DNA from: a virus
Length of the DNA: 39,523 nt
Strand: one strand, 5' to 3'
Virus record (IMG/VR): IMGVR_UViG_3300028024_000179
Coordinates: 1-39,523 of that record
Shown: positions 28,991-35,461 of the stretch, piece by piece
How the letters are laid out: every line of letters begins with the position of its first letter
Numbering within the stretch: position 1 is the first letter of the stretch
Program-made: the position numbers and the translations under genes
Notes under the pieces: model-generated
What the model saw: the letters and a program-made list of their open reading frames with translations, nothing else
The model's database searches: none
Told to the model about the DNA's origin: nothing

Positions 28991-29188
28991 TCATCCCGCG
29001 CGTTCCACGGCCGCAAACGATCTGCCGCCGCGCGGCTCCGTGCACATCATTCCCGAGCGATAGCCGCTGTTGCCGAATCGCTGCTCCATCTCGTAGGCCT
29101 GCTGCACCCGCTGGCTCTCCTCCGCGGGCAGCGCCTCGGGAACCGCCAGCACGCCCCGCCGCAACGTCGCCACCACGCGCCAGTTCAT
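28991..29188 (-). CDS. Small protein after the initiator gene, 65 aa
   Basis: MNWRVVATLRRGVLAVPEAL, then PAEESQRVQQAYEMEQRFGN and ending GGRSFAAVERAG. ATG 29188 forms an ATGA overlap with the initiator stop; GTG 29197, three codons earlier, is an alternative start. No family is recognised. Confidence 0.5.
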   Translation of the reverse strand: MNWRVVATLRRGVLAVPEALPAEESQRVQQAYEMEQRFGNSGYRSGMMCTEPRGGRSFAAVERAG

Positions 29189-30255
29189 CTCCAGCACCCC
29201 ACCCGCGCGCCCTGCTGGCGGCGCAGCTCCTCGAGATCGAGCGGCCAGCTCTCAGGCTGCAGCCAGTGTCCCTGGCGAAAAAATTTCACCGGGCCCCACA
29301 CGTAGGCGCGCAGCGTGCCCAACTGCTGGTACTCGAGCCAGGCGGCAATCATGCGCTCCGCAATCTCTCCGGCCGCGCCGGCACCGGCCTCCATCTGCTG
29401 CACGAGCACCGCCAGCAGCACCCGCTCCATCCGGCGATCCCTGACCATGCCGCAACCCCGCATCGCCTGCTCCACCGCCGCCCGCCTGTCATCCCGCTTG
29501 TCATCCTGAGCGCCACATGGCTTGTCATCCTGAGCTCCACATGACTTGTCATCCTGAGCTCCACATGGCTTGTCATCCTGAGCGAAGCGAAGGACCTGCT
29601 CGTCTTCCACCGCGACCTCCGTCTGCTCTGCGAGATCCCCTTCCCGCGGGGAAGGGGTAGGGGTTGGGATTGTAGTTTTGTTGTTTTGTGTCTTGTTATC
29701 TAATGCGTGTCCTGCAGGAGCGACAGACGCGCCGCTCAGAGCGACAGATCTGTCGCTCCGTGCATCCGCCGCACTGTCGCTCTGAGCGACAGACGCCGTT
29801 TTGCTCCGCTTGCGTTGCGCACTGCGCAGCAGTGTGGCCACCTGCTCGCGCAGCCTCCCGCTGACATCCTCCGGAAGCGCATACGCCGCCCGCTGCCGCA
29901 CAAACACTCCGCCTAGGTCGATGGTGAGCAGTTTCAGATCGGCCAGCAGATAGCGTCCGCAGGCCCGCGGCCCTCGCCCCCGCGTGCGCACCATGCCCAG
30001 GTGCAACAGCACCTGCAGCGCCCGCGAGACGCTGTCCTTGCTCATGCAAGCCAGCTCGGCCAGCTCGCGCAGCGAGGCGTCGACCTCGGCCCCATAGCTC
30101 ACGCGGGTCATCGTGCTCCAGACCAGCGTCGCATCGCGCCCGATGATGGGCAGATACACGTCATAGAGTTCGTTCTCCTGCCAGGCGTGGCCGGGTTTGC
30201 GCACCGTCCGCGTCCCTGGCCCCTCGTTCTCTAGCCCCTCGTTCTCTAGCCCCAC
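29185..30255 (-). CDS. Winged-helix replication initiator-like protein, 356 aa
   Basis: The N-terminal winged-helix part (GHAWQENELYDVYLPIIGRD, ASLRELAELACMSKDSVSRA, LQVLLHLGMVRTRGRGPRAC) resembles phage replisome organiser and lambda O-like DNA-binding domains. The C-terminal helical part (RRMERVLLAVLVQQMEAGAG, IAAWLEYQQLGTLRAYVWGP, VKFFRQGHW) resembles helicase-loader-interacting ends. Between lies a low-complexity linker with iteron-like DNA (29718-29793) and a repeat-encoded stretch [PS]CGAQDDK x3. Start GTG 30255 lies in a 15-base tandem repeat (LENEG twice), so a later start is possible. Replication initiation is inferred. Confidence 0.65.
   Translation of the reverse strand: MGLENEGLENEGPGTRTVRKPGHAWQENELYDVYLPIIGRDATLVWSTMTRVSYGAEVDASLRELAELACMSKDSVSRALQVLLHLGMVRTRGRGPRACGRYLLADLKLLTIDLGGVFVRQRAAYALPEDVSGRLREQVATLLRSAQRKRSKTASVAQSDSAADARSDRSVALSGASVAPAGHALDNKTQNNKTTIPTPTPSPREGDLAEQTEVAVEDEQVLRFAQDDKPCGAQDDKSCGAQDDKPCGAQDDKRDDRRAAVEQAMRGCGMVRDRRMERVLLAVLVQQMEAGAGAAGEIAERMIAAWLEYQQLGTLRAYVWGPVKFFRQGHWLQPESWPLDLEELRRQQGARVGCWR
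29497..29600 (+). repeat. Dispersed host-type repeat, copy 4, tandem 24-base units inside a gene
   Basis: Three 24-base units at 29497-29520, 29521-29544 and 29545-29568, each starting CTTGTCATCCTGAGC, are followed by a full core at 29569-29600 (AGCGAAGCGAAGGACCTGCT). The array is in frame in the initiator-like gene and encodes the 8-residue repeat [PS]CGAQDDK. Confidence 0.9.
29718..29793. repeat. Iteron-like cluster, candidate replication origin
   Basis: Five copies of GAGCGACAGA or its complement lie in 76 bases: direct at 29718-29727, 29739-29748 and 29784-29793, inverted at 29749-29758 and 29773-29782 (the last with one mismatch). The middle pair forms the perfect palindrome GAGCGACAGATCTGTCGCTC. 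It lies inside the initiator-like gene, as lambda ori lies inside gene O. Confidence 0.55.
30221..30250. repeat. Tandem 15-base repeat at the initiator start
   Basis: CCCTCGTTCTCTAGC occurs twice without a gap (30221-30235 and 30236-30250). In frame it doubles the residues LENEG at the very N-terminus of the initiator-like protein, so the true start may lie after it. Confidence 0.7.
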
Positions 30256-30494: not shown

Positions 30495-31193
30495 TCATCT
30501 CTCCCCTTCCTGCACCGCGGCGCCTGCTACGCCGACCGGTACGCCATTCTGCGCGACAAACATCAGGATTTTGCCGTATTCCTCGATCTGCTCTGGCGTG
30601 TAGCCGTTTTCCTCGCCGATCTCGCGGTAGTTCTCCAGCCAGTGCTCGACGGTGTGTATCAGGCAGCCGATTGCAACCTTCCCGAGGCTGTGCTGATTAA
30701 CGAGGTGCATCGTGCCCTGCACGGCGAGCGGCGATTGGTGGAATATGGCCCGTTCACCGATGATTGCCCTGCCGGCGATGCTCGTCTCGTTGCCGATGCG
30801 TGCATGGTTGCCGATGCGCGTCAGGGGCCCAATGCTCACGCCGTCGCCGAGGCTCGCCCCGTCGCCAATGCTCACCCCCTCGCCAACCACGTTCAGCCCG
30901 CCAATGCGTACATGGTCGCCGATGCATACGCGGTTGCCGATGCGTGTCTCGTTGCCAATGCTCAGCCCGTCGCCGAGGCTCACCCCGTCGCCAATGTCTC
31001 CCCAGCCGCCAATGCTCGTTTCGTTACCGATTCTCACTTCGTCACCGAGGCTCACGGAGATTCCGAAATGCGCACCATGGCCGATTTTCACCTCGTCACC
31101 GTCTGGTAATACCCGCCAGCCGTATTCATCGACGGGGAGAGCAAACAGCTCCTCGTTTGTCAGGATGTTTCCATTCCTCAGCAAAATGCTCAT
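30495..31193 (-). CDS. Left-handed beta-helix (hexapeptide-repeat) protein, 232 aa
   Basis: From about residue 40 to 150 the protein is an almost unbroken run of hexapeptides (IGNETSIGGWGDIGDGVSLG, VRIGGLNVVGEGVSIGDGAS, IGPLTRIGNHARIGNETS), the signature of a left-handed parallel beta-helix as in LpxA-type acyltransferases. The C-terminus is helical (LIHTVEHWLENYREIGEENG, YTPEQIEEYGKILMFVAQNG). No catalytic His context of the acyltransferases is clear, so it may be structural. It starts at ATG 31193 and overlaps the upstream gene by ATGA. Such a protein in a phage early region is unusual. Confidence 0.8.
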   Translation of the reverse strand: MSILLRNGNILTNEELFALPVDEYGWRVLPDGDEVKIGHGAHFGISVSLGDEVRIGNETSIGGWGDIGDGVSLGDGLSIGNETRIGNRVCIGDHVRIGGLNVVGEGVSIGDGASLGDGVSIGPLTRIGNHARIGNETSIAGRAIIGERAIFHQSPLAVQGTMHLVNQHSLGKVAIGCLIHTVEHWLENYREIGEENGYTPEQIEEYGKILMFVAQNGVPVGVAGAAVQEGER

Positions 31194-31384
31194 CTCTCCC
31201 GTCCCTCTGCGCGCTGCCTCGCGCGCAATTGTGACTGCCGTTGATACATATTCGCGTAGAGCTGGCGCACGTCGTCGGGCAGCGCGAGAAACTTGGCCGC
31301 GCCGCCGAACGAATGCAGGAACCTCTGCGTCACTCCGTAGCGCGCGTAGATCTCGGCGCATACCGATCGCCTGGGCCGCCGCAT
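31190..31384 (-). CDS. Small early protein, paralogue A, 64 aa
   Basis: MRRPRRSVCAEIYARYGVTQ, then RFLHSFGGAAKFLALPDDVR and QLYANMYQRQ before a basic end. It is closely similar to the gene at 32822-33010, with the same start context after a TAG stop. Helical and basic; function unknown. It overlaps the hexapeptide-repeat gene by ATGA. Confidence 0.65.
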   Translation of the reverse strand: MRRPRRSVCAEIYARYGVTQRFLHSFGGAAKFLALPDDVRQLYANMYQRQSQLRARQRAEGRER

Positions 31385-31435
31385 CTATCCCCGCCTCCAG
31401 CTGCACAGCATGCAGCGCTGCCCGTCGTCGCCGAT
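31347..31435. repeat. 89-base perfect duplication, copy 1
   Basis: Identical to 32973-33061. The wider similar block is about 31190-31435 versus 32822-33061, at lower identity. It covers the start of paralogue A and the end of the truncated ASCH gene. Confidence 0.9.
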
Positions 31436-32825: not shown

Positions 32826-33010
32826 TTCCCCCGCTCCCCTACGCGCTGCTGCTTGGCGCGCAATTGTTGGTACATCCCTGCGTAGAGCTGGCGCACGTCC
32901 TCGGGCAGCGCGAGAAACCGGGCCGCGCCGCCGAAGGCATGCAAGAACCGCTGCGTCACGCCATAGCGCGCATAGATCTCGGCGCATACCGATCGCCTGG
33001 GCCGCCGCAT
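32822..33010 (-). CDS. Small early protein, paralogue B, 62 aa
   Basis: MRRPRRSVCAEIYARYGVTQ, then RFLHAFGGAARFLALPEDVR and QLYAGMYQQLRAKQQRVGER. About 80 percent alike to 31190-31384 over the first 50 residues, and the underlying DNA is a recent duplication at the 5' end. It starts directly after the TAG of the membrane zinc-ribbon gene. Confidence 0.65.
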   Translation of the reverse strand: MRRPRRSVCAEIYARYGVTQRFLHAFGGAARFLALPEDVRQLYAGMYQQLRAKQQRVGERGK

Positions 33011-33061
33011 CTATCCCCGCCTCCAGCTGCACAGCATGCAGCGCTGCCCGTCGTCGCCGAT
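32973..33061. repeat. 89-base perfect duplication, copy 2
   Basis: Identical to 31347-31435. It covers the start of paralogue B and the last 16 codons of the membrane zinc-ribbon gene. This copy sits in an intact gene context, so it is probably the parent copy. Confidence 0.9.
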
Positions 33062-33637: not shown

Positions 33638-35461
33638 TCACCCCTTGCCGCCTTTCCCGGTCGACTTCCGGGCGGCCCAGCGCTTCTTCTGCACCGCGGC
33701 GATCCGTTTCTTCGCGGCAGCCGTCAGCCCCTTCTTTTGCTGTGGCGCCTTTGCCTTTGCCTTCGCCTTCGCGGGTTCCGCGGGCTCCGGCTGCACCTTG
33801 CCGGCGGATTCCGCGCGGATCCGCTTTACATCGAGGCTCAAACATCCGGCGAGCTTCTCCAGGTCCTCCGGCTTGGAGTGCAGAGCATATTCATTCACCG
33901 CCAGCTCCCCGGCGTGGGCGGCCAGAAGAGCCACGCGCAGCCGCTCCGTCGGCGCCAGCCCGGCCATGCCCTCACGCAGCTGCCTCGTTCCGCCCCAGCC
34001 GAAGATGTCCGCCGGCCAGCCCAGCGCCTCGGCGACCTTTACCCCATACTGGCCAGGCCCGCGGCCGATCGCATACAGGCAGACCTCGAGATTCAGATCC
34101 GACGCGTAGAGCGCAACCAGCGGCGCCTGGGCCACGGCGGCAAACAGAGCCATGCGATATTTTTTCTCTGCATTCACCTTTTCGAGCAGCTTCTTGCGCT
34201 CGGCCTTCGCCTTCTCCGGATCTTTCGCCGGTCCTGTATAGTGACTCTGCCCCTTGTGCTTCTTGCATTTTTCGTCGCGGCAGATCTGCACAGCATGCCC
34301 GGCCCGGCGACCACTGATCCAGATCGCCTCCTCCTGCGACGAGCAGGGAAGATTCTGTTTTTCGATGAGCACCACGGAATAGTCCGGGATCGCGCCGGTC
34401 GCCGAACTGTAGCCATCGCTGAGCTGCAGCAGGGGCCGTTTCTCCAGCTCGGCATTGTCGAGCTCGTGACGGATCCAGGCACGCACTTTGCCGCTGAAAC
34501 AATCGCCATCGGTGCACGTGTCCTGGGCGACGTCCTCGAACAGCAGCGCCGCATTCGTGCTGCGCCGCGGGCATACCGTGCAGGCCATCGGCGCCCAATC
34601 CAGCCCGAGCGGGAAAGGGGCATCGCTCAACACGCGCAGCGTCCTCTCGGCGATTCGCGAGCGGAGCTCCGAGAGCGACCAGCGCGTCGGCCGCCAGGCC
34701 GTCACACCGCGATCTGCATTCCACTGCTCCACGCATCCCGGACGGTTGCAGACCGTCCGCTCCGCATTTGCCCAGGAACATGGCGCGCCATCCACCTCGC
34801 ATGCCCCGCACGCATTTTCCTCCGTGCAATCGCAATATCTGCAGACGCCGGCCTCCGCAAATTCCTCAGCCTCATCGTCCTCGTCGTCATCATCCGTATC
34901 GCGAGGGTTGAATCCCACGTCCAGCCAATCGAGCATGCGCTGCTGCTGCTCCGGGCTCAGGCGCGCCAGCTCCAGCGCGTGGCCCACGTCGATTGCGCCC
35001 GCCGCGAGCGCCTCGCGCACCGGCGCGATCGCATCCAACAACTTCAGCCGGCGGCCGACGAAGCTCGCCGACTCGAGCGGCGGCAGATCCTCGCGCTGCA
35101 GGTTGCTGACAATGCCCAGCTCGCGCGCCTCCGCGTCCGCCATCTCGCGCACGATGCACGGGCAGCTCGCTTTGCCCGCGAGCCGCGATGCGGCATGCCT
35201 CCGTTGACCCGCCACGATCTCGTAGGCGTCGACGCCGATCGGGCGTACCAACAGCGGCTCCTGCACACCATGCGCCGCGATCGATGCAGCCAGATCCCTG
35301 AGCGCAGCCTGGTCGATCGTTCGCCGCGCCTCCTGTGCAGAAACCGATAACTGCTCGAGCGGGATCTCGCGCACCACCGTGCTCCCGTCCGGGTTGTTTT
35401 TGGCGGTCGTTGCCGCCGTGCGATTTTTTCCGTTCCGTATCCGCGCAACCTGCTCCATCAC
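33638..35461 (-). CDS. ParB/Spo0J-like protein with inserted zinc cluster, 607 aa
   Basis: The N-terminal ParB-type domain is clear: VREIPLEQLSVSAQEARRTI, GVQEPLLVRP, YEIVAGQRRHAASRLAG (83-96) and SNLQREDLPPLESASFVGRR. After an acidic linker (182-200) a cysteine cluster follows (CRYCDCTEENACGACEVDGA, then CSW...CNRPGC, 207-243). More Cys pairs (CTVCPRRSTNA, CTDGDC) precede the helical C-terminus, which ends in an AKKRIAAVQKKRW basic tail. It is about twice the usual ParB length, and no ParA is in view. It may act in replication or gene control rather than partition. Confidence 0.8.
   Translation of the reverse strand: MMEQVARIRNGKNRTAATTAKNNPDGSTVVREIPLEQLSVSAQEARRTIDQAALRDLAASIAAHGVQEPLLVRPIGVDAYEIVAGQRRHAASRLAGKASCPCIVREMADAEARELGIVSNLQREDLPPLESASFVGRRLKLLDAIAPVREALAAGAIDVGHALELARLSPEQQQRMLDWLDVGFNPRDTDDDDEDDEAEEFAEAGVCRYCDCTEENACGACEVDGAPCSWANAERTVCNRPGCVEQWNADRGVTAWRPTRWSLSELRSRIAERTLRVLSDAPFPLGLDWAPMACTVCPRRSTNAALLFEDVAQDTCTDGDCFSGKVRAWIRHELDNAELEKRPLLQLSDGYSSATGAIPDYSVVLIEKQNLPCSSQEEAIWISGRRAGHAVQICRDEKCKKHKGQSHYTGPAKDPEKAKAERKKLLEKVNAEKKYRMALFAAVAQAPLVALYASDLNLEVCLYAIGRGPGQYGVKVAEALGWPADIFGWGGTRQLREGMAGLAPTERLRVALLAAHAGELAVNEYALHSKPEDLEKLAGCLSLDVKRIRAESAGKVQPEPAEPAKAKAKAKAPQQKKGLTAAAKKRIAAVQKKRWAARKSTGKGGKG

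Follow-up and report, generated by a model that had tools for sequence, protein, structure and literature searches.

The 39,523-nt virus-derived stretch of DNA analyzed here (the window; positions 1 to 39,523 of IMG/VR record IMGVR_UViG_3300028024_000179) carries, at 30495..31193 on the minus strand, a gene for a 232-aa protein made of an N-terminal cap, a hexapeptide beta-solenoid, and a conserved C-terminal cap domain (C-domain). We propose with moderate confidence that the protein is not an enzyme but a modular product of an early phage gene, with a variable rod that presents a constant, partner-binding C-domain in a replication or recombination setting. The observations underlying this modular reading are the architecture itself, a C-domain that is conserved and that sits on both hexapeptide and pentapeptide rods, the fast change in rod length, and the early genomic setting.

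The window is an intact-looking siphovirus prophage located on contig 9 of a 3.9 Mb host genome. Up to 24 kb it holds an integrase (1-1257), tail proteins, tape measure, head-tail adaptor, major head protein, portal, and terminase; the solenoid gene lies in the early region at 30-35 kb together with a gene for a ParB-like protein (33638..35461, minus strand; PF02195, 4.7e-22). The solenoid gene starts with an ATG at 31193 and stops at 30495-30497, and the GC content of its frame by codon position (0.64/0.42/0.75) agrees with genuine coding sequence in DNA of 63% GC. A 64-aa ORF (31190..31384, minus strand), which sits within a DNA stretch duplicated upstream, overlaps the solenoid gene start with its stop, and the next gene downstream (29185..30255, minus strand) encodes a winged-helix or replication O-like protein by a weak match. 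A direct repeat of 196 nt, 92% identical, was found at 31240-31435 and 32866-33061, 1,626 nt apart; a 62- to 64-aa ORF begins within each copy and is followed by differing cargo (the solenoid gene in one), which suggests module exchange via homologous recombination. The C-terminal half of the ORF at 32277-33032 matches the C-terminal domain of numerous PHROG families that have no known function (phrog_6628, 11504, 9434, and 3956) and is another mobile end domain of phages.

The N-terminal cap (residues 1-32, EELFALPVDEYGWRVLPDGD type; 31098..31193, minus strand) is common to the window protein and relatives L050-L052 in an alignment designated A3; confidence of the structural model is low there. 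It is followed by the hexapeptide solenoid (residues 33-150, about 20 hexads; 30744..31097, minus strand), in which 15 of 19 hexads fit the pattern [LIV]-[GAED]-x2-[STAV]-x in phase, a count attained by none of 20,000 shuffled sequences (maximum, 6). Pfam Hexapep (PF00132) matches five stretches (4e-18; 64.7 bits against a cut-off of 27), and an 18-nt spacing in the DNA matches the hexads. The C-domain (residues ~154-216; 30545..30734, minus strand) was modeled by AlphaFold2 with 42 relatives as four strands and two helices (ββββαα) over about 60 residues, at pLDDT 90-98, with the helices at 182-195 and 200-216. A sequence-only reading of this locus had described a hexapeptide repeat followed by a helical C-terminal domain in a phage early operon; the repeat, the C-terminal helices, and the early placement all hold, but that reading missed that the C-domain is the conserved, telling part, borne on hexapeptide and pentapeptide rods alike.

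A glycine, a tryptophan, a tyrosine, and an EY pair of the C-domain are invariant across the 42 sequences (alignment A2). The cysteine of an IGC motif is nearly invariant; some Leptospira copies have tyrosine in its place, so this cysteine is not strictly catalytic. Outside identities for the domain were sparse. The profile phrog_32789 matches it at 1.2e-4 over residues 162-214; no Pfam family covers it, and the Pfam matches of individual members (HTH_23 and others) are weak and scattered. The best PDB match by C-domain sequence, a methyltransferase (0.023 over 36 residues), was taken as chance, and two structural matches, PURA (Z 6.1) and a large-subunit ribosomal protein, fell below the noise level of 7-8. 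Foldseek with the C-domain model returned nothing under 0.78 from the PDB; against predicted viral structures it listed phage proteins named hexapeptide, pentapeptide, beta-solenoid, and polymer-forming cytoskeletal, of which the first two matches have E <0.001 and the remainder are supportive, not proof. We found no description of the C-domain/rod family in the literature.

How widely the family appears to be distributed depends on which part of the protein is used as a probe. With the whole window protein as query, matches were obtained in 82 of 150 relatives; phrog_5353, used as a profile, hit 297 of 297 genomes and also 14 of 14 controls. Because hexapeptide proteins occur everywhere, neither is usable as a probe. 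The solenoid is thus uninformative, and the ~60-residue C-domain is the informative part. Phage homologues, which the sequence-only reading had proposed to look for, were recovered with a C-domain profile, which found 52 viral contigs (a viral scan with the single window protein sequence gave no match), with further carriers in one Vibrio phage, gut phage contigs, and a few phage-like plasmids from the genera Leptospira and Promineifilum. Within the phylum, the profile matched 1 of 396 genomes, the window's own, and two C-domain profiles run against 84,980 genomes, in scans limited by one short pattern, found none. The Leptospira mayottensis plasmid p2 (L046 3097-6027) carries five solenoid paralogues in tandem, three of which have the N-terminal cap and rod without the C-domain, and one of which has a C-domain with the cysteine changed to tyrosine.

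This one domain recurs in numerous unrelated bacterial viruses, and the rods that precede it are of several kinds. Hexapeptide rods of the IGDGAS, VSGNAQ/VYGDAR, and LGDGCK types stand before it in some relatives and pentapeptide rods in others (ADLSG, together with the five-residue FNGGE and GTILG); in L078 there is hardly any repeat at all. Autocorrelation gave a rod period of 6 in 33 relatives, of 5 in 6 (including L059, L066, L085, and L094), and of neither in 4. On a tree of the C-domain, where the window protein clusters with L049-L052 (support 99/98), the rod period changes five times (four to five in bootstraps), with at least two changes forced by supported branches and a single origin of the period in 0% of bootstraps; the alignment has few columns and the tree many open forks, and the exact number of swaps is uncertain. 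Rod length varies even between close relatives. L071 and L077 match at 100% in C-domain and flanks, with rods 42 residues (7 hexads) apart in length; L106 is 99% identical to phiRM10, an isolate phage, over the last 210 nt, with a difference of 6 hexads; and the C-domain DNA is 95% shared between L044, which has about 4 hexads, and L087, which has about 14, although repeat number in some pairs could have been altered by metagenome assembly. The longest perfect run spans 6 to 31 hexads depending on the relative, with 45 in L081. Since the number of hexads is not a multiple of three, the two caps do not stand at a set angle to each other; rod length is loose in evolution, and neither length nor cap angle is conserved. 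Repeats are near-identical within one protein and different between proteins. For Vibrio phage 1.139.A (L102 3162-3301), GenBank lists the repeats within a related coding gene as CRISPR spacers, a call that is apparently false.

A larger set of proteins (phrog_20532/7964) combines a VSGNA-type rod with a C-domain that has GCF in place of IGC. Carriers of this GCF type include Streptococcus thermophilus phage Sfi19 (orf229), Ruminococcus phage phiRM10 (gp34), and many viral contigs. An earlier hhalign comparison of six GCF sequences with the window C-domain was not significant; with 78 GCF sequences, 60 columns aligned at a pairwise E of 2e-4 and a probability of 45%, GS, GC, and EY fell in register, and none of 200 column-shuffled controls attained the score. 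In addition, Foldseek with the window C-domain lists proteins of phiAGATE and Bp8p-T, both of which were also found by BLAST with a GCF-type C-domain. Common descent of the IGC- and GCF-type C-domains is probable, not proven. The phrog_7964/phrog_20532 proteins resemble the window protein in having a hexapeptide-period rod, a phage early region, and an alignable C-domain, and differ from it in the GCF motif, another N-terminal cap, and a shorter helix link. YdcK, an enterobacterial protein of unknown function (PDB 2F9C and 2PIG), has an N-terminal cap and rod homologous to phiRM10-type proteins (7e-20), but the match to phiRM10 gp34 ends before the gp34 C-domain, and YdcK is not close to the window protein. 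Solenoid proteins of the GCF group in L207 (3995-4771) and other Streptococcus phage records are labeled glycerol kinase, apparently a misannotation. The family is already catalogued (phrog_5353, phrog_32789, phrog_7964, and phrog_20532) and functionally undescribed, and the C-domain itself is undescribed: phrog_5353, to which no function is assigned, covers the rod and C-domain of the window protein (7.1e-30 over residues 33-214), phrog_32789, likewise of no function, is the C-domain alone, and neither records the same C-domain on pentapeptide rods.

Early DNA-metabolism genes adjoin the solenoid gene repeatedly in both the IGC and GCF groups. Neighbors (called by a simple longest-ORF rule) include Erf annealing proteins, exonucleases, DnaB, DNA methylases, and a PD-(D/E)XK nuclease; Gam, Rad52, NinB, and NinG in phiRM10; a helicase in Sfi19; and, at other loci, RecT, a recombinase with an exonuclease, or a primase/helicase. 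One neighbor scan returned NinB, Sak4, RecE, and helicases. No structural family was among the 25 commonest neighbor families in either scan, and endolysins were present in one. Since phage early regions house accessory genes of every kind, such a neighborhood is weak evidence for function. At L088 4275-5318, a protein combining DUF7666 with pentapeptide repeats adjoins the solenoid gene and represents a second rod-type phage family.

If the modular reading is right, the N-terminal cap and hexapeptide solenoid would make up a stiff rod whose length is evolutionarily loose, carrying the constant four-strand, two-helix C-domain; the C-domain would perform the specific task, most likely through binding to a protein or nucleic acid in the replication or recombination compartment of the phage. 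The rod would then act as a spacer and probably as an oligomerization platform, trimeric if it is a true left-handed beta-helix. As a counterpoint, the rod may be functional by itself, given the Leptospira paralogues that retain the solenoid and lack the C-domain.

Among other roles, the protein could serve in anti-defense or host takeover, with the rod surface binding and blocking a host factor and the quick turnover of repeats reflecting an arms race. The early accessory position, the patchy distribution of the C-domain within the phylum, and the rapid change of the rod are consistent with this, but the likeness of repeats within a protein looks like concerted repeat turnover and not like selected binding surfaces. 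PADLOC, which covers defense and not anti-defense, gave no match for the solenoid protein or nine other early-region ORFs. On balance, we regard an anti-defense role as unlikely.

A related proposal is that the protein mimics DNA, acting on gyrase or another DNA enzyme in the manner of MfpA and Qnr. Pentapeptide-type DNA mimics are known (PMC10886550), MfpA and Qnr are beta-solenoids like the window family, and the same C-domain occurs on some true pentapeptide relatives; the window protein also has a net charge of -15. However, its rod has a period of 6 and contributes a charge of only -6 over 118 residues, and net rod charge per 100 residues spans about -19 to +10 among relatives, varying in sign. 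MfpA and Qnr gyrase inhibitors dimerize via C-terminal helices (PMC10886550), whereas the window C-domain is a four-strand, two-helix domain. A DNA-shaped surface, as the sequence-only reading had suggested, is not supported as a family trait, and DNA mimicry seems quite improbable.

We likewise doubt strongly that the protein is a bactofilin-like, self-assembling filament inside the infected cell, a role suggested by some relatives annotated as polymer-forming cytoskeletal and by the predicted rod, which superposes on the right-handed Thermus bactofilin at 1.9 Å rmsd over 101 residues (Z 12.8). The rod portion of the model is of moderate confidence (pLDDT 70-81) and its handedness may be wrong; the same moderate-confidence solenoid model superposes on left-handed LpxD at 12 Å. 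Foldseek with the whole model gave no match under 0.02. A left-handed rod is suggested only by the sequence family, and the handedness of the model is doubtful. PF04519 is not among the Pfam matches at E up to 0.1, and a capped C-terminus should hinder end-to-end stacking.

An enzymatic role as a sugar or amino acid acyltransferase of the LpxA/LpxD/GlmU kind is very unlikely. PF00132 repeats are common to these enzymes and the window protein, there are weak matches to LpxD and LpxA, and relatives bear database names such as putative acyltransferase, but the best NCBIfam score is 57 bits against a cut-off of 207, and there is no conserved histidine (alignment A3), no inserted loop, and no fixed number of coils; histidine is absent from the longest perfect hexad run in 14 of 33 hexad-type relatives. 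A gamma-carbonic anhydrase was also rejected: three conserved zinc-binding histidines are required, the rod has no invariant or nearly invariant histidine, and the score lies below the model cut-off. Clear orthology to a catalytic acyltransferase, which would have spoken against the sequence-only reading, was not found, and the low scores, the missing histidines, and the recombination and replication neighbors support a non-metabolic use in the phage early region.

It is extremely unlikely that the DNA repeats are themselves the functional element (origin iterons or a recombination site) and the protein incidental: the 18-nt spacing does lie beside replication genes, but the DNA copies are only 60-75% identical to each other under a strict protein pattern and the codons of the fixed Ile and Gly vary, so selection appears to act on the protein, and the C-domain is conserved at the protein level.

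Returning to the modular reading, a broader form of it, which we offer only tentatively, is that the IGC and GCF types make up a widespread, undescribed domain superfamily, a dedicated effector or adaptor of phage recombination and replication complexes, mounted on freely exchangeable, slippage-tuned beta-solenoid rods; such an architecture would be new for phages. Because repeats dominate searches, many phage proteins are named acyltransferase, YdcK-like, pentapeptide repeat, polymer-forming cytoskeletal, or even glycerol kinase. Some members occur in phages of laboratory hosts, such as S. thermophilus phage Sfi19 and, going by the rod that gp64 bears, M. smegmatis phage Boilgate, and the role is therefore directly testable. 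A common C-domain beside recombination and replication genes gives these orphan early proteins a shared identity and a specific, testable part.
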